Shown: positions 1-8,136 of the stretch, one piece after another
Layout: the number at the start of each line of letters is the position of its first letter
How positions within the stretch are numbered: position 1 is the stretch's first letter
DNA from: an uncultured Atopobium sp.
GTDB lineage: Bacteria; Actinomycetota; Coriobacteriia; Coriobacteriales; Atopobiaceae
DNA: 8,136 bases
Assembly (NCBI GenBank): GCA_946647055.1
Contig: CAMPCT010000087.1
Coordinates: forward strand, 1-8,136
Direction of reading: 5' to 3'
The notes under the pieces: generated by a model
Told to the model about the DNA's origin: nothing
Databases searched by the model: none
Seen by the model: only the letters and a program-made list of their open reading frames with translations
Position numbers and translations under genes: made by a program

Positions 1-21
1 TTCGCGTAAGAGACATCGCGA

Positions 22-882
22 CTAGTCGTCAGTCTCCTCGTAGTAGTAGGAGTAGTCGATGCCCTTCATAAACAGCTCCCTATCGTCGATTCGGCCGGTC
101 AAGGCACCCGTAATCAAGGCGCGGATGGGCTTGGCGTCAATGACGCTTCGCTCCATGGCCTTGAGATACTCCTGCTTGTCAATGAGCCGCCAGTCAACGC
201 AGAGATGCAACCGCTGCTTCAGCAGCATATCGAGCCAGATCCTTGTGGCCCTACCGTTCCCCTCCATGAAGGGGTGTGCGATGTTCATCTCGACGTACTT
301 GTCGACAATCTCGGTCGCGGTAGTGTCGGGCATGGCCTCAATCCGAGCGAACGTCTCGTCGAAGTACCTCCAGTTGGCAAATTGGAATCCGCCCTTGGAG
401 ATGTTCTTCGTCCTGATCTTGCCCGCAAAGTCGTAGAGGCCGTCAAACAGAAACGCGTGAATCTGCTGCAGCCCCTTCACGGTCCCGACGAAATCCTCGT
501 CAAGGACGGGACTGTCCCACAATTCGTATGCGCGTCGCTTGCTCTGCTCGTCGAGCGGACTCATCTTTCCCGCAATCCAGTCGGGAAAGCCCGCGCGAAC
601 CTTTCTGGGCAGAACCATGATGAGCGCGTCAACGCCCTCCTGCCCGATGCAGTCGCTCAGATACCTCTTGCCATCGGAGGCAATCAGCCTCAGTTGTCTA
701 CAAAACGTATTCAGCTCAGGGTTCCGACGTTTGCAGGCATTCCAATAGATGCGCGGGTTCTTGCTGTCCGTCAGTGCCGCAACCACGTCAACTGCAGAGT
801 AAAGCCAGCGCGAATCGTCATCGTCCCAAATTGCTCGGACAGCGGTCTTGTTGAAGTATCGAACCGAGGTCTTTCGGGTCAT
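22..882 (-). CDS. BRO-N-like domain fused to Fic AMP transferase (class III, autoinhibited)
   Basis: A 286-residue protein. Residues about 8-105 resemble the BRO family N-terminal domain (IWDDDDSRWLYSAVDVV, then DGKRYLSDC), a putative DNA-binding module. Residues about 110-286 form a Fic domain with the catalytic motif HPFMEGNGRATR at 203-214. His203 is the expected catalytic base, Glu207 the metal ligand, and Arg211 the ATP phosphate contact. The flap-like segment ISKGGFQFAN (161-170) precedes it. The C-terminus carries SYYYE at 278-282, matching the (S/T)xxxE inhibitory helix of class III Fic proteins such as Neisseria NmFic, so the enzyme is probably autoinhibited until it modifies itself (Tyr279 aligns with the NmFic auto-AMPylation site). 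Known FicT-type relatives AMPylate DNA gyrase and topoisomerase IV; the target here is an inference. The start is placed at 882 because AGGAAAGGA lies 8 bases upstream; 40 further in-frame codons upstream run through the promoter and operator and are not believed. No separate antitoxin gene is adjacent. Confidence 0.9.
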   Translation of the reverse strand: MTRKTSVRYFNKTAVRAIWDDDDSRWLYSAVDVVAALTDSKNPRIYWNACKRRNPELNTFCRQLRLIASDGKRYLSDCIGQEGVDALIMVLPRKVRAGFPDWIAGKMSPLDEQSKRRAYELWDSPVLDEDFVGTVKGLQQIHAFLFDGLYDFAGKIRTKNISKGGFQFANWRYFDETFARIEAMPDTTATEIVDKYVEMNIAHPFMEGNGRATRIWLDMLLKQRLHLCVDWRLIDKQEYLKAMERSVIDAKPIRALITGALTGRIDDRELFMKGIDYSYYYEETDD

Positions 883-901
883 GGCGTGTGTCCTTTCCTG
901 T

Positions 902-920
902 TGTCTACAAATTGTAGACA
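902..920. promoter_or_regulatory. 19-bp operator-like palindrome over the Fic -10 box
   Basis: TGTCTACAA-A-TTGTAGACA is a perfect 9-bp inverted repeat around one base. It covers the -10 box of the BRO-Fic promoter, so a bound protein would block RNA polymerase. The TACA...TGTA core loosely recalls BlaI/MecI/CopY-type operators, but the BRO-N-like domain of the Fic protein itself or the XRE protein encoded upstream are equally possible binders. The binder is unknown. Confidence 0.65.
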
Positions 921-939
921 TCCGGAAAACGTAGGGCAA
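902..939 (-). promoter_or_regulatory. Promoter of the BRO-Fic gene
   Basis: Read on the minus strand there is a -35 box TTGCCC (934-939), a 17-bp spacer and a -10 box TACAAT (911-916). Transcription would begin near 904, giving a leader of about 20 bases before the start codon at 882. The -10 box lies inside the operator at 902-920. The spacing is ideal and the boxes are close to consensus, but the promoter is read by eye. Confidence 0.65.
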
Positions 940-990
940 GTTGGTTGTCGCCCCTTTGTTGTTTCGAGCGGCCTCCGAGCCCGGGCACGA

Positions 991-1065
991 CAGCGTACAC
1001 AATTCGACCTAAGCTCTCACGTTTCCGCAGGATACGCGAAAGCTTAGGTCGAATTGTGTACACTG
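991..1065. repeat. 25-bp inverted repeat with 25-bp loop between the XRE and Fic genes
   Basis: The arms at 991-1015 and 1041-1065 are complementary at 24 of 25 positions (the mismatch is at 994). The outer parts contain the self-complementary octamer GTGTACAC. The 25-base loop contains TTTCCGC and GCGAAA, which could extend the stem with a bulge. The element lies 29 bases after the XRE stop codon and upstream of the Fic promoter. It could end XRE transcription as a long-stem hairpin (there is no clear T-run), or be a MITE or a head-to-head pair of transposon ends. The sequence does not decide between these. Confidence 0.75.
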
Positions 1066-1094
1066 TTGAGCACGAGATCTTCACGTGAGGGACG

Positions 1095-1886
1095 TCACGG
1101 CAAATCGTTAGTCGGCCTGTCTAAATAGAACTGCTCCTTGGTCCACTCGTCAAAGTAATACGTATGCCCTGGGTGCACGAGGGCCATGCCCGAGAACAAA
1201 ACGAACTCCACGTCGTTGTCGTCGGTTATCTCCCCAACGAGACCCTCAGGGCATTCATCCAGCAAATCGTAGTCGACACCAAACAGTTCGAAAGTGGCAT
1301 TGGCCTCGCTCTCAATGAGAGAGAGGATGATTTCTTCCATAACCGTGTGTGCAACTATGCATTCACCGCTCTTTGCCTGCGCGCGAAGCCTCTTGATGAA
1401 AAACACGAGGGCATACATGAACTCGTAGTCATATCGAGTGAGGAACTGAGGGGGTAGGTCTCCGGCAAGCCAAGAAAAGCCTAGTTCGCCCAGATGGGTA
1501 CCTTTCGGTCGTGTAGACAGCTCTGCAAGATCTTCTTTGGCGTGGTCGAGCACAATGTCGCTGCCAAGGGCAAACGATGCGGCCGTAATACGGCCGTAAG
1601 TGTTGTACAGATACGTCGACCAAGCCTTATGAGATTCGTCAATGCCACTCAGCGGATCATCCTCGACGATCGTTTCGTCATTCGGCAGTTCTTTCCAGTC
1701 CAAGACCTTCAACACTTTTGGAACCTTGTCAGAGCGAATTGATGCCCCAGACTCATAACGTGACCAGGTCTTCGTTCCCACGCCTGCTTTTCTCGCCGCT
1801 TCCTCAATCGTAAGGCCTAATGATTCGCGACGAGCCTTTATGGCCTCCCCGAGCTCTGGTGAACCTTGGCTTCTCTTAGGTGGCAT
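1095..1886 (-). CDS. XRE-type HTH protein with an unrecognised C-terminal domain
   Basis: A 263-residue protein. Residues about 12-64 form an XRE/Cro-type helix-turn-helix (AIKARRESLGLTIEEAARKA, then TWSRYESG), so it is expected to bind DNA in the cytoplasm as a repressor or sensor. The remaining 190 residues, mostly helical with an acidic stretch near 207-228, match no family I recognise; there are no membrane segments, zinc ligands or obvious catalytic motifs. The start at 1886 is chosen over the in-frame ATG eight codons earlier because AAAGGAG stands 5 bases before it. The gene is divergent from the toxin-antitoxin operon across 178 bases, and the Fic gene follows on the same strand after 212 bases with its own promoter. 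It may regulate one or both neighbours, but this is inferred from position alone. Confidence 0.85.
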   Translation of the reverse strand: MPPKRSQGSPELGEAIKARRESLGLTIEEAARKAGVGTKTWSRYESGASIRSDKVPKVLKVLDWKELPNDETIVEDDPLSGIDESHKAWSTYLYNTYGRITAASFALGSDIVLDHAKEDLAELSTRPKGTHLGELGFSWLAGDLPPQFLTRYDYEFMYALVFFIKRLRAQAKSGECIVAHTVMEEIILSLIESEANATFELFGVDYDLLDECPEGLVGEITDDNDVEFVLFSGMALVHPGHTYYFDEWTKEQFYLDRPTNDLP

Positions 1887-1919
1887 ATCTTCTCCTTTAT
1901 GACTGGTCACTATAATGTC

Positions 1920-1947
1920 AGTATATTCATTTCTTGTGAGATGGCAA
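1920..1947 (-). promoter_or_regulatory. Promoter of the XRE-type gene
   Basis: On the minus strand there is a -35 box TTGCCA (1942-1947), a 16-bp spacer and a -10 box TATACT (1920-1925). The transcript would have a leader of about 27 bases. A short inverted repeat TGAC-TG-GTCA (1900-1909) and further TGTCA/TGAC motifs lie just downstream and could be operator half-sites. Confidence 0.5.
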
Positions 1948-2012
1948 GTGGGGGTCCACAGTTGCCAACGCTCGCCTTAGCTGCATATCACGCAACTACG
2001 AAAATGATTTTC

Positions 2013-2047
2013 TTGCCTTTCGTGAATTGTCATCATATAATGACAAT
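2013..2047 (+). promoter_or_regulatory. Promoter and operator of the toxin-antitoxin operon
   Basis: A -35 box TTGCCT (2013-2018), a 17-bp spacer and a perfect -10 box TATAAT (2036-2041) place the transcription start near 2048, about 17 bases before the toxin start codon. ATTGTCAT-N6-ATGACAAT (2026-2047) is a perfect 8-bp inverted repeat that spans the -10 box. This is the arrangement expected for autorepression by the HTH of the antitoxin. A further AT-rich palindrome, AAAAT-G-ATTTT (2001-2011), abuts the -35 box. Confidence 0.7.
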
Positions 2048-2064
2048 ATTAGGAGAGGGAGGGC

Positions 2065-2415
2065 ATGAAACCAAAGGCATCGATCGAGCTATTTCTTCGT
2101 CAGCTCAAGCAGTTTGTCGAGAAGAACTCGTTCATCTTGGTCGAAAGGGAGGCAAGCAAGCAGTTCATGGCAAGCAGGGGCATGTCAATCGAGATGCTCA
2201 GGGACTTGATTCTCTCGTTGGAACCTGCTGATTGTTTCGATGGCCCCGAACCAGACAGAGATCCACGTTATGCGGAGAAGTGGACCATAGCCGAGTTTTC
2301 ACCAACTTACCTAGGTGAGCAGATCTACCTGAAGATGTCTATACGCATCGATATCGAACGAGCAAAATGCCTGTCGGTAAAGGCATATGTAGAAAGAAGA
2401 GACACCAATGACTGA
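2065..2415 (+). CDS. MqsR-like toxin of a type II toxin-antitoxin pair
   Basis: A 116-residue protein with the MqsR family pattern: an N-terminal helical half (residues 5-55, including EMLRDLILSL) followed by a W...F.P...G.QIYLK...L.VK strand half (73-108). E. coli MqsR is 98 residues, so the length is slightly long. MqsR has a RelE/YoeB-like fold and cleaves mRNA, preferentially at GCU in E. coli. Tyr88 and Lys90 in QIYLK and Lys106 near the end correspond in position to conserved MqsR residues; specificity here is unknown. AGGAG (2051-2055) stands 9 bases before the ATG. The toxin gene comes first and overlaps the antitoxin gene by 8 bases, the same order as mqsRA. Assignment rests on remembered family patterns, not on a search. 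Confidence 0.75.
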   Translation: MKPKASIELFLRQLKQFVEKNSFILVEREASKQFMASRGMSIEMLRDLILSLEPADCFDGPEPDRDPRYAEKWTIAEFSPTYLGEQIYLKMSIRIDIERAKCLSVKAYVERRDTND

Positions 2416-3451
2416 GTATGTGGACACCTACTGCCCCGAGTGCGACAAAGAGGTCCATGCCAGCCTTCACGACCAGCTGACCAGCCTCTCCGTACGCGGT
2501 GAGCTTGTCACCTACTCCGAGACCGTCGCCATCTGCCCAGAATGCGGGTCGGCAATTGGCGACGCCCGCATCGAAGGTGCCAACCTCGAACGAGCCTATG
2601 CCATCTACCGCTCGATACATGGTGTCCTCTCCCCTGCCGAAGTCAAGGACCTGCGCCAGTCGTACGGCCTCTCCCTACGCGAGTTCAGCAAGTTCCTTGG
2701 CTTTGGAGAGCAGACAACCTATCGCTACGAGCACGGTGACATCCCCGACCAGTCGCACAACACCACGATGCTGAGCGCCAGGAGCGTGGAGGGGGCTCGC
2801 CTTCTCCTCTCGCAAAACGGCTCGAGGCTGAGCAGCAGGTCAAAGGCAAAGGTGGAGCAGCACATCCAGAATATGGCTGACGGCGCTGCAAGTGAAGTCC
2901 AACCTGGCCCCACCCTCGAGGCGAGGGAAACCGACACCCCCTCTGCTGTGAACGGGTATCGAAGGCTCGACATGGACCGAGTCGCAGCGCTCGCGTTCGA
3001 GCTCGCAAACAGGTGCCATGAGCTGTACTGGACCAAGTTCCAGAAGGCCATGTTCTTTGCCGACATGGTGGGATTCGAGCGCAGCAGTCGCTCGCTCACG
3101 GGGCTCAGCTACGCACACGCCACCTATGGCCCCGTCATGGACCGTAAGGACGAGGTTCGCTATCGCCTTGCCAGCCGCAGGGCTGTGGACTTCCGCGAAT
3201 GTGGTTGGGGTGAGGTGCTTGTCCCCGTACATCAAGAGGGGCAGCCTTTCAGCCCAATGGAGCTGGCGATCATCGCCGAGGTCGCGGATTTCGTCAACTC
3301 CTTCGACACCGCCAGCGAGCTGTCCGATTTCTCGCACGGGCTGAGCTGTTGGAAGGCAAGTGCTGACGGCGAGATCATCGAGTACACGAGCAATGACGGC
3401 GAGGTAGGGAGCGCCATGACCAAGTGGATGGCCCAGCTCGAGACCGCATGA
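2408..3451 (+). CDS. Antitoxin: MqsA-type zinc finger, HTH and Panacea/SocA-like (DUF4065) domain
   Basis: A 347-residue protein in three parts. First, an MqsA/YgiT-type zinc finger with CPEC pairs at Cys9/Cys12 and Cys43/Cys46. Second, an XRE/MqsA-type helix-turn-helix at about 76-122 (LSPAEVKDLRQSYGLSLREF, then TTYRYEHG). Third, after a low-complexity linker (about 155-182), a Panacea/SocA-like DUF4065 domain at about 190-315, with YWTKFQKAMFFADM, YAHATYGPV and LSDFSHGLSCWK as landmarks. In Panacea systems this domain neutralises a cognate toxin, and the zinc finger plus HTH give operator binding as in MqsA. The toxin should be the overlapping MqsR-like protein. Translation is probably coupled through the ATGACTGA overlap, with a weak purine-rich AGAAGAG site. 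Autorepression at 2026-2047 is inferred. Confidence 0.85.
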   Translation: MTEYVDTYCPECDKEVHASLHDQLTSLSVRGELVTYSETVAICPECGSAIGDARIEGANLERAYAIYRSIHGVLSPAEVKDLRQSYGLSLREFSKFLGFGEQTTYRYEHGDIPDQSHNTTMLSARSVEGARLLLSQNGSRLSSRSKAKVEQHIQNMADGAASEVQPGPTLEARETDTPSAVNGYRRLDMDRVAALAFELANRCHELYWTKFQKAMFFADMVGFERSSRSLTGLSYAHATYGPVMDRKDEVRYRLASRRAVDFRECGWGEVLVPVHQEGQPFSPMELAIIAEVADFVNSFDTASELSDFSHGLSCWKASADGEIIEYTSNDGEVGSAMTKWMAQLETA

Positions 3452-3460
3452 CAGACTGCA

Positions 3461-3493
3461 GCTGGGCTGGCGATTGTTGCTCGTCAGCCCAGC
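3461..3493. terminator. Strong hairpin between convergent genes
   Basis: GCTGGGCTG (3461-3469) pairs perfectly with CAGCCCAGC (3485-3493). Inner bases add one G-U pair and three further pairs, closing a 7-base loop at 3474-3480. It starts 9 bases after the antitoxin stop codon and ends 31 bases before the convergent peroxidase stop codon, so it can serve both. No T-run follows, so intrinsic termination is not certain. Confidence 0.55.
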
Positions 3494-3524
3494 ACGTTCG
3501 TCGCAAGTTAGCTGTCACCCGCCC

Positions 3525-4064
3525 CTACAGCAGGGCCTTGACGCACTCCTCAACCTTGGCCATGTCCGCCGTGGGCTCGAAGCGCGCGACGACGTTGCCC
3601 TCGCGATCGATGACGAACTTGGTGAAGTTCCACTTGATGTCGGGCTTCTTGTCCCAGTCGGGGTCGGCCTCGGCAAACATCTTCTCCAGGAGCGGTTTGA
3701 ACTCGTGCTCGTCGAAGCCCTCGAAGCCCTTCTCGGCCTTGAGGAAGGTATAGAGCGGCAGCTCGTTCTCGCCGTTGACGTCGGCTTTCTTCATCTGCGG
3801 GAAGGTCGTGTTGAAGTGCATGGTGCAGAACTCGTGGATCTCGTCGTCGGTGCCGGGGGCCTGCCCGCCAAACTGGTTGCAGGGGATGTCCAGGATCTCG
3901 AGGCCCTGCTCGTGGTAGTCGCGGTACATCTGCTCGATGGGCTCGTACTGGGGCGTGAACCCGCAGCCGGTGGCCGTGTTGACGACCAGGATGACCTTGC
4001 CCTTGTACTCCGCGAGGTTCAGCTCCTCGCCCTTGCCGGTGGTGATGGTGTAGTCGTAGATCAT
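3525..4064 (-). CDS. Glutathione-peroxidase family thiol peroxidase
   Basis: A 179-residue protein, the usual length for the family. NTATGCGFTPQY (29-40) carries the peroxidatic Cys34, and PCNQFGGQAPGTDDEI (61-76) is the family signature. Gln68 and Trp145 (KWNFTKF, 144-150) complete the catalytic set. Cys80 in FCTMHF is placed like the resolving cysteine of thioredoxin-dependent members, so the reductant is more likely thioredoxin than glutathione. The role is reduction of hydrogen peroxide and lipid hydroperoxides in the cytoplasm. Cysteine, not selenocysteine, is encoded at position 34. The start at 4064 is preceded by GAGGG at a 7-base spacing; an in-frame extension of 36 residues upstream lacks family sequence and is rejected. 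The gene is convergent with the antitoxin gene and divergent from the lipid kinase gene. Confidence 0.95.
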   Translation of the reverse strand: MIYDYTITTGKGEELNLAEYKGKVILVVNTATGCGFTPQYEPIEQMYRDYHEQGLEILDIPCNQFGGQAPGTDDEIHEFCTMHFNTTFPQMKKADVNGENELPLYTFLKAEKGFEGFDEHEFKPLLEKMFAEADPDWDKKPDIKWNFTKFVIDREGNVVARFEPTADMAKVEECVKALL

Positions 4065-4180
4065 GGTCGCGCCCTCGTTCTGTCTGTTGATGTGCCTGCC
4101 GACCCTATGGTGCGGCATCCCATATCCAAATGTCAAAGGCGCGTCCTGGCGCCGGTGCCGGAGGGTCTGCAAACCCGCAA

Positions 4181-4215
4181 ATCGCGAAATGATAGTCAGA
4201 CTATCATTTCACGAT
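4181..4215. promoter_or_regulatory. 35-bp near-perfect palindrome upstream of the peroxidase gene
   Basis: Arms at 4181-4197 and 4199-4215 around one central base match at 16 of 17 positions; the inner 12 bp per side (GAAATGATAGTC / GACTATCATTTC) are perfect. A possible minus-strand promoter (TTGTTT, 18-bp spacer, GATAGT) would have its -10 box in the palindrome. It looks like an operator for a dimeric TetR- or MarR-like regulator, or for a metal or peroxide sensor. No regulator is encoded next to it, and a hairpin role is also possible. Confidence 0.65.
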
Positions 4216-4237
4216 TCTGGCCAAAACAACATTGGGG

Positions 4238-4280
4238 GGGTCCCGCCCCTCTCGCGCACGGGTCCCGCCCCCTCGCGCGC
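4238..4280. repeat. GC-rich imperfect tandem repeat, two units
   Basis: GGGTCCCGCCCCTCTCGCGC starts at 4238 and GGGTCCCGCCCCCTCGCGCG starts at 4260. The two units are adjacent, each 21-22 bases, differing mainly by a short indel. The element lies between the palindrome at 4181-4215 and the kinase promoter; its function is unknown. Confidence 0.6.
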
Positions 4281-4308
4281 CCCACACGGCGGCGCCCCCA
4301 CCCGCGCG

Positions 4309-4317
4309 TGATATAGT
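4309..4317 (+). promoter_or_regulatory. Extended -10 promoter of the lipid kinase gene
   Basis: TGATATAGT reads as an extended -10 element (TG-N-TATAGT). No -35 box is recognisable in the very GC-rich sequence 17 bases upstream. A transcription start near 4324 would give a leader of about 36 bases. Confidence 0.45.
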
Positions 4318-4359
4318 CATTCGCAGCCCCTGCCCGCCACGACGCACGCGCGACTCACC

Positions 4360-5088
4360 ATGCCCAACGTCCAACAGATAGCCCAGGAGATGCTCGCCGG
4401 CGTGGAGGTCATCCTCCCCTACTTCGCGGTGCTTGCCACGACGGCCTTCCTCATCCGCTACTTCACCAACATCAAGGACGAGATCTTCCGCAAGCTGCTC
4501 CACATGGTCCTCGTCGTCGCCCTCATGTTCTGGCCGTTCGTGTTCGACCACTGGTACACGGCCGCGCTCACCGCCCTTTTGTGCATCGTGGTCTTCTACC
4601 CCGTGCTTGCCCTGCTCGGACGCATCGACGCCTTCTCCAGCTTTGTCAACGAGCGCTCGACCGGCGAGTTCAAGGCGAGCCTGACGCTGGTGCTGCTCAT
4701 GTATGCCACCGTCCTCGCGCTGTGCTGGGGCTGGCGCGGCGAGCGCATCCTCTCCGTCGCGGCCATCAGCGCCTGGGGCTACGGCGACGCGACCGCCGCC
4801 CTCGTCGGCAAGCGCTTTGGTCGCCATCACATCGAGGGTCGCCTGGTCGAGGGCCGCAAGAGCCTCGAGGGCAGCCTCGCCATGTTCGTGGTCTCGTTTG
4901 TCAGCGTGCTTGTCGTCCTTGTCATCCGCGGCGGCATGACCTGGCCCCACCTGCTGCTCACGGCGCTTGTCACCGCCCTCGTCACCACCGTCGTCGAGCT
5001 CGTCTCGCACCACGGCAACGACACCGTGACCTGCCCGCTTGCCGCGACGGCCGTCCTCATTCCGCTCACGTGGCTGTTGGGAGGGTGA
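4360..5088 (+). CDS. CTP-dependent lipid/polyprenol kinase-like membrane protein
   Basis: A 242-residue protein with about seven membrane segments. It matches the DGK1/SEC59/phytol kinase superfamily (near the CDP-diglyceride synthetase fold): RKLLHM (44-49), AWGYGDATAALVGKRFG (138-154) with Asp143, RKSLEGS (166-172), and a late E...GNDTVTCPLA segment (Glu213, Asp221). These enzymes phosphorylate a membrane lipid alcohol such as diacylglycerol, dolichol or phytol, usually with CTP; the substrate here cannot be told. The start at 4360 has no clear Shine-Dalgarno sequence, so initiation may be weak. It is four bases from the following membrane-protein gene, with which it probably forms an operon. 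Older annotations often call such proteins phosphatidate cytidylyltransferase. Confidence 0.8.
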   Translation: MPNVQQIAQEMLAGVEVILPYFAVLATTAFLIRYFTNIKDEIFRKLLHMVLVVALMFWPFVFDHWYTAALTALLCIVVFYPVLALLGRIDAFSSFVNERSTGEFKASLTLVLLMYATVLALCWGWRGERILSVAAISAWGYGDATAALVGKRFGRHHIEGRLVEGRKSLEGSLAMFVVSFVSVLVVLVIRGGMTWPHLLLTALVTALVTTVVELVSHHGNDTVTCPLAATAVLIPLTWLLGG

Positions 5089-5092
5089 TCGC

Positions 5093-5719
5093 ATGAGCGA
5101 CGCGGCCGACAAGAGCGGCAGCCGGACGCTTCTCGTGTCCGTCCTCATGAGCGCGCCAGGACCGCTCGTCATGGGCCTGGGCTTGCTCGTCGGACGAAGC
5201 TCCACCCAGCTCGCCGACTTCTTCCGACGCAGCGCGGAGCTCTTAGCCATCATCGTGTCGTTCGTGGTCTTTCGCCGGACGCACCGCGAGGGCTTCTCCG
5301 ACCCCGACCTTCGCGTGCAGATGGAGCGCCGGTCCAACTACTTCGTGGGCTGGATGATGTGTCTGAGCGGCTCGTTCATGGTCGCGCTGGCGCTGTTTGG
5401 CGGCAGCGAGGACAAGGGCAACGTCGTGGCCGGCCTTGCCATCGCGGGCATGGGCGCCATCGCCAACACCATCTTCTGGATTCGCTACACCGTGCTCAGC
5501 AAGCGCAGCGACAGCGCGATCCTTGCCGTCCAGAGCCGACTCTACCGGGCAAAGTCGCTGGTCGACATCTGCGTCACCACCGTGCTTGTCGTCGTCATGC
5601 TCATGCCGGGCACCCCGCTTGCCCGCTGGCTCGACCTCGCGGGCTCGCTGGTGGTGGCCCTCTACCTGGTGTGGTGCGGCATCAGGACCGTCCTCGAGAA
5701 CCGACGCGCGGCAGCGTAG
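5093..5719 (+). CDS. CDF-like integral membrane protein lacking usual metal ligands
   Basis: A 208-residue protein with about five to six membrane segments and no C-terminal cytoplasmic domain. It resembles the membrane part of cation diffusion facilitators: STQLADFFRRSAELLA (37-52) fits transmembrane helix 2, and SRLYRAKSLVDICVTT (148-163) fits helix 5. In CDF proteins each helix carries a D/HxxxD zinc site. Here the first ligand of each pair appears as Arg45 and Lys154, while the second is Glu49 and Asp158. Zinc transport is therefore doubtful, and the substrate is unknown. The start at 5093 is preceded by GGGAGGG overlapping the end of the kinase gene, with four bases between the genes, so the two are coupled. 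An alternative is a distantly related membrane protein with a coincidental pattern. Confidence 0.7.
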   Translation: MSDAADKSGSRTLLVSVLMSAPGPLVMGLGLLVGRSSTQLADFFRRSAELLAIIVSFVVFRRTHREGFSDPDLRVQMERRSNYFVGWMMCLSGSFMVALALFGGSEDKGNVVAGLAIAGMGAIANTIFWIRYTVLSKRSDSAILAVQSRLYRAKSLVDICVTTVLVVVMLMPGTPLARWLDLAGSLVVALYLVWCGIRTVLENRRAAA

Positions 5720-5765
5720 CCCGAGCGCACGCCGTCCCCGCCTTTCCCGCGGTATCCCGTTGGAC

Positions 5766-5771
5766 GATAAT
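5766..5771 (+). promoter_or_regulatory. Possible -10 box of the DUF4236 gene
   Basis: GATAAT lies 33 bases before the start codon in an otherwise GC-rich gap of 85 bases. The candidate -35 (TTTCCC, 5743-5748, 17-bp spacer) is poor. Read-through from the upstream operon is the alternative. Confidence 0.35.
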
Positions 5772-5804
5772 GGACACGACAGCCAGCTCGGCAAGGGAGG
5801 CGAC

Positions 5805-7193
5805 ATGGGTCTTCGGTTCAGGAAGTCGGTCAAGATTCTGCCCGGCGTGAAGGTCAACCTCTCGGGCTCGGGCGTGAGCGTGACCGTTGGCCCGCGCGGC
5901 TTCACGCACACCATCGGCAAGAACGGCATCTACCGCAACCTCAGCCTCCCCGGGACGGGCATCTATTCCCGGGAGAAGGTCGCCGACCTCCCCGGCAGCA
6001 AGGGCAAGGGCGGCTCGGGCAGTGGCTCCCGCGGCAACTCCGGCCGCAGCACCAAGCGCCTCACCAGCGTGGGCACGACCACCTCGCGCGCGCCTTCGGT
6101 GCCCGCCGCCGTGCGCGAGTGGCGCGCCTACACCGGCGAGAGCGACCCGCAGGTCACCATCGACATCTCCCCCGAGGGCACCGTCACGCTCCTCGACGCG
6201 CGCGACCAGGCCATCACCGACCCCACCCTCATCAGCATCATCAAGCGCACGCCCCAGTACCGCGAGCAGATGCCGGTGCTACGCGAGCAGCACCGCGCCG
6301 AGGTCGCAGCCGTGGTCGCCGAGCACGCCGCCGCCAACGACGCGGTCATCAAGATCTGTCGCCGCTCCCCGCAGGTCCTTGCCCGCAGCGACTTCGAGAA
6401 GGCACTCGAGGACCTTGAGCAGGGACGATTTGACCTGTCGGAGCCGGAGCCCACGGCTGCGCCAGAGCAGTCGCCGGTCGAGGCGCCGGCTCCCGCGCCA
6501 ACCCCGGCGAGCAAGCCCGCGAGCAAGTACCTCGACCGTGAGCTCGCGCGGCAGTTTGACGAGGAGCTGCGCCAGTGGGAGGCGACCCACGCAACAGCTG
6601 CGCCCGAGCCCACACCTGCATCGGCACCTGTGACCGAAGCCGACCAAGAGCTGGTGGACCAGCTCAAGCAGGCTTGCCAGATGGCCCTCGACGGCGACGA
6701 GGACTACGTCGAGTCCGTGGCCGAGGAGTGGATGTCCCGCTGCGACATCCCCCTCGAGATCTTCACGCAGTTCGAGTACCGCGAGCAGGAGCATTGCCTC
6801 ATGGTCGACCTCGACCTGCCCGAAATCGAGGACCTACCCGGGCAGGTCGCGACCCAACTTGCCAACGGCGACCTGCGGACCAAGGACAAGTCGCAGACGC
6901 AGCTGCGCCGCGAGTACGCGGAGTGCGTGTTTGGCCTCGCCGTGTACGTCGCGGCCAACCTGCTCAACATCAGCCCCGCCATCGAGGAGGTCGTCGTGTC
7001 CGGCTACACGCAGCGCCGAGACCGCGCGGGAGACCTTGTCGACGACTACCTCTTCTCGGTCAGGTTCCCCCGCTGGGCGCTCGACGGCGTGGACTTCGAG
7101 GCAATGGACCCCGAGGAGTTCTGCCTTGGGCTCGAGAGTCGCTGCAGCATGACCGCCACCAAGGTGTTCAGGGCAATCGAGCCGTACGAGTAG
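5805..7193 (+). CDS. DUF4236 protein with linker and conserved-looking C-terminal domain
   Basis: A 462-residue protein. Residues 1-57 are a DUF4236 domain (MGLRFRKSVKILPGVKVNLS, then SVTVGPRG and SLPGTGIY), a small basic beta-rich module of unknown function. A Gly/Ser-rich stretch (64-95) is followed by a helical, charged region (about 100-210), an acidic Pro/Ala/Glu linker (about 212-280) and a C-terminal domain (about 281-462) with FEYREQEHCLMVDLDLPEIE and RWALDGVDFEAMDP as its most distinctive parts. There are no signal peptide or membrane segments, so it is cytoplasmic. Relatives with DUF4236 at the N-terminus carry varied tails; the function is unknown. AAGGGAGG four bases before 5805 fixes the start. 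The frame continues far upstream inside the preceding gene, but that part is only a shadow. Confidence 0.85.
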   Translation: MGLRFRKSVKILPGVKVNLSGSGVSVTVGPRGFTHTIGKNGIYRNLSLPGTGIYSREKVADLPGSKGKGGSGSGSRGNSGRSTKRLTSVGTTTSRAPSVPAAVREWRAYTGESDPQVTIDISPEGTVTLLDARDQAITDPTLISIIKRTPQYREQMPVLREQHRAEVAAVVAEHAAANDAVIKICRRSPQVLARSDFEKALEDLEQGRFDLSEPEPTAAPEQSPVEAPAPAPTPASKPASKYLDRELARQFDEELRQWEATHATAAPEPTPASAPVTEADQELVDQLKQACQMALDGDEDYVESVAEEWMSRCDIPLEIFTQFEYREQEHCLMVDLDLPEIEDLPGQVATQLANGDLRTKDKSQTQLRREYAECVFGLAVYVAANLLNISPAIEEVVVSGYTQRRDRAGDLVDDYLFSVRFPRWALDGVDFEAMDPEEFCLGLESRCSMTATKVFRAIEPYE

Positions 7194-7636
7194 GGCCGAC
7201 TGCCCGATCCAGCCGCCTCGCCCGCCTTGTCGATGCTCCCTTGGCCACCGACGCACTTGACATAAGCACCTTATATGCAAAGGACGGCATAGCTGATGCA
7301 CTTTGCGGCGCCGTACCCTCAAACCCTGCAGCGCACATTTGCGAAACTGCCAAAAAATCGAGCTTTTAGGAAGAAATGGGGTGCGATTTCACAGCCCGGG
7401 CGATACAACACCCTCGTTTCCGCAGGTAGTCGGTACCGGTTTTCGCGTGTATCACCAGGGCACACCTCGATTCTTCCTAAAACCTCGATTTTTTGGCATT
7501 TCCACGATTCTGTGCTGCAACGCTCCCCCAAAAGGCTGCTCCAACAAGCGGTTGCCATCCTGTCACGCCCCCGTCGCCCGACAATCGCGGCGCGTCAGTC
7601 GTATCCTTGGTGACAGCAACCGGCAAGGAGGCCCCC
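7194..7636. other. 443-bp intergenic region
   Basis: No gene is supported here. The first 130 bases hold no clear terminator; a TTGACA at 7257-7262 lacks a matching -10 box. The middle is occupied by the long inverted repeat at 7327-7519, which is richer in A/T than the surrounding genes. The last 110 bases lead to the lipoprotein gene, with a weak -10-like TATCCT at 7602-7607. Confidence 0.7.
7327..7519. repeat. Long imperfect palindrome, candidate MITE or REP-like element
   Basis: The core arms at 7348-7375 and 7471-7498 match at 27 of 28 positions. Outer ends TGCAGC (7327-7332) and GCTGCA (7514-7519) match with the same offset, and an inner pair (7395-7407 with 7448-7460) matches at 11 of 13. 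The whole could fold as one hairpin of about 193 bases in DNA or RNA. There are no coding potential and no obvious target-site duplication. It may be a non-autonomous mobile element, an extragenic palindrome or a large terminator structure. Confidence 0.75.
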
Positions 7637-8136
7637 ATGAGGAACACGCACACGTCCCTGCTCGCAGCCGCCTTCGTGGCGATGGCGCTCACGCTCTCCG
7701 CCTGCGGCTCCGCACCCGCACCAGATCCCGAGCCCACGACCATCGTCGAGGGAACACCGGTGCTCTTCTTCTTTGACAACACGGGCGCGACCCAACTGCG
7801 CGAGGACATGGAGGCGGGCAACGTGCCCCTGTCGTGCACCGTCCTCTACGACGAGTCGGGCTGCCGTCCCGAGGTGACGGTCACCGACCCCGACACCATC
7901 GCCGAGCTCTACGATCGCTTCTCGCAGATGATCGTGCTCGAGGACGGCGAGGCCATGGGCGTCACCGACTCATACCACTACATCGCCTTCACGCTGCAGG
8001 ACGGCACCACCGTGAGCTGGGGCTTTGAGGGTGCGGGGGCCATCTGCGACGGGTCCGACCTCCTCGCGGTGAGCGACGAGGGCGGGCTTTGGCAGCTCGT
8101 GCGCGAGCTCCAGCAACCGCTCATGGACGACGGGGA
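7637..8136 (+). CDS. Secreted lipoprotein, 3' end outside the window
   Basis: At least 166 residues are visible, and the frame is still open at the window edge. The N-terminus is a lipoprotein signal peptide: Arg2, a hydrophobic stretch (8-20) and the lipobox LSAC with Cys23 as the lipidated residue. An Ala/Pro/Glu-rich spacer follows, and then an acidic globular part that contains paired cysteines (Cys65 and Cys75) and a third near residue 139. I recognise no enzymatic motif. AAGGAGG stands 5 bases before the ATG, a strong start. It would be anchored on the outer face of the membrane, and the ligand or role is unknown. Confidence 0.85.
   Translation, partial: MRNTHTSLLAAAFVAMALTLSACGSAPAPDPEPTTIVEGTPVLFFFDNTGATQLREDMEAGNVPLSCTVLYDESGCRPEVTVTDPDTIAELYDRFSQMIVLEDGEAMGVTDSYHYIAFTLQDGTTVSWGFEGAGAICDGSDLLAVSDEGGLWQLVRELQQPLMDDG

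Follow-up and report, generated by a model that had tools for sequence, protein, structure and literature searches.

An 8,136-nt stretch of an uncultured Atopobium sp. genome (assembly GCA_946647055.1, contig CAMPCT010000087.1, positions 1 to 8,136; hereafter the window) carries a real and well-formed two-gene toxin-antitoxin locus, in which the gene for an MqsR-like toxin is followed by that for an antitoxin composed of a zinc finger, a helix-turn-helix (HTH) domain and a C-terminal Panacea domain. We consider it probable (about 0.8) that the locus is a type II operon of the mqsRA plan, whose first gene would encode an MqsR-fold ribonuclease-like toxin that is gripped and blocked by the N-terminal zinc-binding domain of the antitoxin, while the HTH domain would dimerize on a palindrome over the -10 box and repress the operon, and the Panacea domain would be dispensable for holding the toxin but would sense a trigger and loosen the complex. 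This reading is directly supported by the domains, the gene overlap, the toxin fold, the recurring palindrome, purifying selection in relatives and the natural occurrence of partners lacking Panacea; toxicity, neutralization by the zinc finger, autorepression and sensing are predicted from homologues. The pair is a poorly annotated representative of an already studied type of toxin-antitoxin system, and its less expected part is the toxin's poorly annotated branch, which is without the lysine essential in Escherichia coli MqsR. The features of the locus are as follows.

2013..2041, + strand: sigma-70-like promoter, TTGCCT-17 nt-TATAAT (a consensus match only, at 10 of 12 positions)
2026..2047, no strand: putative operator, a palindrome over the -10 box with 11-nt arms, 91% complementary; core TGTCATCATATAATGACA at 2028-2045
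2065..2415, + strand: MqsR-like toxin gene, 116 amino acids; by alignment Tyr88 corresponds to E. coli Tyr81 and Asp59 to Lys56
2408..3451, + strand: antitoxin gene, 347 amino acids, zinc finger-HTH-Panacea
2420..2623, + strand: zinc-binding domain, residues 5-72, with Cys 9, 12, 43 and 46; predicted neutralizing part by homology with Bacillus fungorum PanA, as described in PMC10440598
2624..2797, + strand: HTH domain, residues 73-130; predicted dimeric DNA-binding autoregulator, with matches to HigA2 and MqsA
3041..3355, + strand: Panacea (SocA-like) domain, Pfam residues 212-316, with the GPV signature at residues 241-243

The two genes overlap by 8 nt, and the palindrome encloses the -10 box and ends less than 20 nt 5' of the toxin start codon, so that the toxin-first order, the overlapping antitoxin and the putative operator at the promoter together reproduce the mqsRA locus plan. 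The domain reading given in the initial annotation proved right. The antitoxin matched both MqsA-type profiles (TIGR03830, 77.6 bits, cut-off 61.8; PF15731, 31.6 bits, cut-off 30) and the Panacea profile PF13274 (44.2 bits, cut-off 25.7), and its zinc finger weakly matched MqsA as a fold. Across the 26 antitoxins aligned, the zinc-finger cysteines were invariant, as were Gly241 and Pro242 of the GPV motif, which is a signature of the Panacea domain (PMC8832971). The toxin is MqsR-like by its fold matches; the profile search that had been proposed as a check succeeded for the antitoxin and failed for the toxin, which scored 14 bits against the Pfam MqsR profile PF15723 (cut-off 26.2) and had no NCBIfam match. 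Likewise, none of the 120 toxin homologues listed (120 of 169) carried a precomputed Pfam label, whereas, among the distant members of the branch, P0255, P0257, P0290 and L061 have one.

It had also been suggested that this pairing may be little studied and that the surface holding the toxin, zinc finger or Panacea, is an open question. The first suggestion does not agree with the literature, since MqsR-like domains form the most frequent recognized class in the set of putative Panacea partners (90 of 1,268, with 938 giving no domain hit; PMC8832971) and a B. fungorum pair has been dissected (PMC10440598); the authors of PMC8832971 further report an earlier sighting of Panacea in a putative alternative MqsR antitoxin (a 2013 chapter). 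In their account, a Herbaspirillum MqsR was toxic, yet no rescue was obtained. The second was already answered in the B. fungorum relative, where, according to the published description, the zinc-binding domain alone or together with the HTH neutralizes MqsR, neither Panacea alone nor HTH-Panacea does so, and the authors lean towards Panacea being a sensor (PMC10440598). A literature search joining MqsR with Coriobacteri returned no paper from the limited collection covered.

Comparison of relatives bears on the same question for the toxin branch of the window. Among 396 genomes from the class of the L001 genome, relatives of the toxin were found in 27 and Pfam MqsR in 34, and when 395 genomes of one order were searched with a wider toxin profile, 41 had relatives. 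The core set consisted of 40 loci, the window included, with a one-frame toxin match and a partner bearing zinc finger and HTH; within it, the match of L083 and L088 to the toxin profile begins only at about residue 27 to 29, and L029 has a very long branch. Left out were loci with a broken or shortened toxin (L001, L022, L023, L081), at contig ends (L091, L094) or masked (L089), L092 (toxin match no better than 1e-5; Pfam identifies Panacea in its partner, where our own Panacea profile missed it), Pfam-MqsR loci except L061, and duplicates of one place. All 40 partners have the zinc finger and HTH, and 36 have Panacea. Three partners (L008, L019, L020) end after the HTH, inside contigs of 263, 53 and 188 kb, and no Panacea remnant was detected by our profile in any frame of these loci. 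In the fourth exception (L024, 1860-2711), a second XRE-type HTH stands where Panacea would be; this partner is full length in one of the four genomes of its family, and a short Panacea-like stretch (our own profile) lies upstream of the toxin at 1212-1463. In a toxin tree the 40 formed one side of a 100/100 branch, with 17 Pfam MqsRs (set A4, from 30 fetched loci) on the other, although long branches may meet, including at this split. The four exceptions were nested inside the branch of the 40, the three toxins with shortened partners grouping with weak support (79/56). The nesting indicates that this toxin branch can live without Panacea, in agreement with the B. fungorum result. Our Panacea profile matched one of the 30 Pfam-MqsR loci (L061), which is a lower bound, as L092 was missed.

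Several further loci were encountered in this survey. An ordinary Pfam-MqsR at L057 (1841-2707) has a partner in which an MqsA zinc finger-HTH is fused to HIRAN, with one full-length case in 101 genomes; L103, a different protein with an upstream frame that is HipA-like by eye only, contains a stretch 77% identical to this HIRAN. The second-HTH and HIRAN partners are thus known from one case each. L113 (1414-2001, read as reverse complement) encodes a zinc finger-HTH protein without Panacea and gave no toxin match in its 3.5-kb locus, a possible orphan antitoxin. Two different MqsR-Panacea pairs (L004 and L090) are separated by about 6 kb on the same contig of genome G224. A relative on a Fibrella plasmid (L099, 1-3469) adjoins cyclic-oligonucleotide-based antiphage signalling system (CBASS) genes and a Bacteroides relative (L100) adjoins a DNA methylase and an HNH gene, both of which are defence-island settings. 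A phage-labelled faecal contig (L101, 2519-4002) holds a distant pair, a 142-amino-acid open reading frame whose tail looks MqsR-like by eye, together with a 352-amino-acid antitoxin relative, 27% identical.

The putative operator recurs upstream of the toxin. A site with at most 5 mismatches from TGTAATCATATGATTACA was found in all 22 window-clade loci tested, 19 with and 3 without Panacea, compared with 0 of 1,388 background windows; several of these loci are near copies of one another, and the consensus was chosen after seeing the same upstream regions, so that the background is the control and not the discovery set. The 22 comprised 19 loci with a one-frame toxin together with L001, L022 and L023, with L081, L091 and L094 outside the test. 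At up to 6 mismatches, 13 of 21 distant loci had a site and 8 did not (background, 5 of 1,739 windows), with the site located 59 to 81 nt upstream of where the match begins in L061, L086 and L095. Within the window, the pattern TGTMATCATATRATKACA occurred only at the palindrome itself (2026-2047). Since the palindrome is common to partners with and without Panacea, the HTH is likely the part that binds it.

Each part of the pair is under purifying selection in relatives. The ratios of non-synonymous to synonymous substitution (dN/dS) for L004/L005 were 0.08 (toxin), 0.19 (zinc-binding domain), 0.05 (HTH) and 0.09 (Panacea), and in eight pairs without the window they ranged from 0.07 to 0.25, 0.06 to 0.46, 0 to 0.12 and 0.09 to 0.32, respectively, with the highest values at very small dS. 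When the window was compared with L004 or L005, silent sites were saturated in 7 of 8 comparisons. In L001, L022, L023 and L081 a broken or shortened toxin stands next to an antitoxin whose three domains all lie in a single frame; no clear example of the opposite, a broken antitoxin beside a whole toxin, was seen among the loci, and assembly errors are possible.

The active site of the toxin departs from that of E. coli MqsR, whose cleavage requires Tyr81 and Lys56, K56A being inactivating (PMC9636575), and in which alanine at K56, Q68, Y81 or K96 lowers toxicity, as reported in PMC2791442. Tyr88 and the lysine of the YxK motif (Lys90) are invariant in all 40 toxins, while the position of Lys56, in an ungapped stretch of the alignment, is occupied by Asp (25), Ser (5), Gln (3), Glu (2) and by Lys, Leu, Ala, Met and Asn once each. 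All 19 toxins of the window clade have Asp there, inside D-G-P-E-x-D. The 17 Pfam-MqsRs of the class have Lys (12) or Glu (5), and two Bacteroidota relatives, read by eye, have Arg and Lys. The Lys/Tyr pair is therefore not shared by all these toxins, and in the window clade an acid has become fixed at the lysine position; catalysis by Asp59 would be one reading of the alignment. No counterparts are assigned to Gln68 and Lys96, around which two profile alignments conflict (Gln68) or the C-terminal stretch is ambiguous between clades.

Two points weigh against the mechanism proposed above, namely the loss of the catalytic lysine, and the possibility that some contact between Panacea and toxin may persist, which would be compatible both with the Panacea-less partners and with the outcome of a mirror-tree comparison of co-divergence on 33 of the 36 Panacea loci. 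The latter leads to an improbable alternative, in which the grip on the toxin would come from Panacea itself, on its own or jointly with the zinc finger, in the manner of stand-alone Panacea antitoxins that directly neutralize other toxins (PMC10440598). Its retention in 36 of 40 partners, its constraint, the intact GPV signature and the mirror-tree are all compatible with such a grip, but the same toxin branch includes three relatives with zinc finger-HTH only and one with a different C-terminal module, and the B. fungorum Panacea and HTH-Panacea constructs fail to neutralize in the published description (PMC10440598).

The lysine loss could alternatively mean that the toxin branch has given up ribonuclease activity and that the pair now acts as a regulator with the "toxin" as co-repressor, given that Lys56 remains in only 1 of the 40 toxins, is Asp throughout the window clade, and is indispensable in E. 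coli (PMC9636575). We regard this as more doubtful still: Tyr88 and Lys90 never vary, the toxin is under constraint, Glu replaces the lysine in 5 of 17 Pfam-MqsRs of the class, and the four loci with a broken toxin and whole antitoxin fit a toxin shed by cells. As Lys56 is not universal in the MqsR family, its loss lowers the claim on mechanism and not that on homology. Least probable appears a type VI-like system, in which Panacea would be a protease adaptor sending the toxin to degradation as for SocA, which has the same domain (PMC8832971); the antitoxin has a dedicated zinc finger, and other Panacea antitoxins worked without ClpXP or Lon, as that study reports (PMC8832971).

Beyond the preferred zinc finger-held operon, we give well under even odds to a tentative picture in which the toxins of the window clade might be MqsR-fold ribonucleases that remain active with a remodelled catalytic centre. 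Their invariant Asp in D-G-P-E-x-D would then stand for the lysine, making an acid/tyrosine pair that is closer to those of classical microbial ribonucleases, and the MqsA-type zinc finger-HTH would be a chassis whose C-terminal sensor module can be exchanged (none, Panacea, a second HTH or, in an ordinary MqsRA, HIRAN) while the operator logic stays conserved. Relatives from a single toxin branch that naturally lack Panacea or carry an HTH in its place offer matched pairs for separating sensor from neutralizer roles of Panacea, and the lysine loss in a conserved MqsR branch would probe the generality of the E. coli Lys/Tyr mechanism.

Elsewhere in the window, a Fic protein with a BRO-N-like N-terminus (22-1002, - strand) exceeds the cut-off of the NmFic equivalog model and corresponds to the PADLOC candidate defence family PDC-S04; a divergent HTH protein (1095-1910, - strand) adjoins its gene. 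A glutathione peroxidase (3525-4172, - strand) and a cation-efflux family protein (5096-5719, + strand) are ordinary neighbours.

Among named systems, the B. fungorum MqsR:PanA pair, known here by description, shares the MqsR-type toxin, whose catalytic tyrosine is needed, and the zinc-binding, HTH and C-terminal Panacea domains of the antitoxin (PMC10440598); the window toxin differs in belonging to a branch mostly without a Pfam label, Coriobacteriia by organism names. The E. coli MqsR:MqsA system (3hi2, 3gn5), by contrast, has an antitoxin without Panacea, Lys56 in place of Asp59, and a different operator sequence (as given in PMC4894380). A Bacteroides finegoldii plasmid pair (WP_195589978 / WP_004327161) is already annotated as an MqsR family toxin with a SocA-domain antitoxin; its toxin, unlike that of the window, keeps Lys at the Lys56 site, and its antitoxin is 24% identical to ours over 82% of the query. 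Finally, SocA of the Caulobacter SocB/SocA system likewise bears a Panacea domain but is described as a ClpXP adaptor for a replication-inhibiting toxin (PMC8832971).
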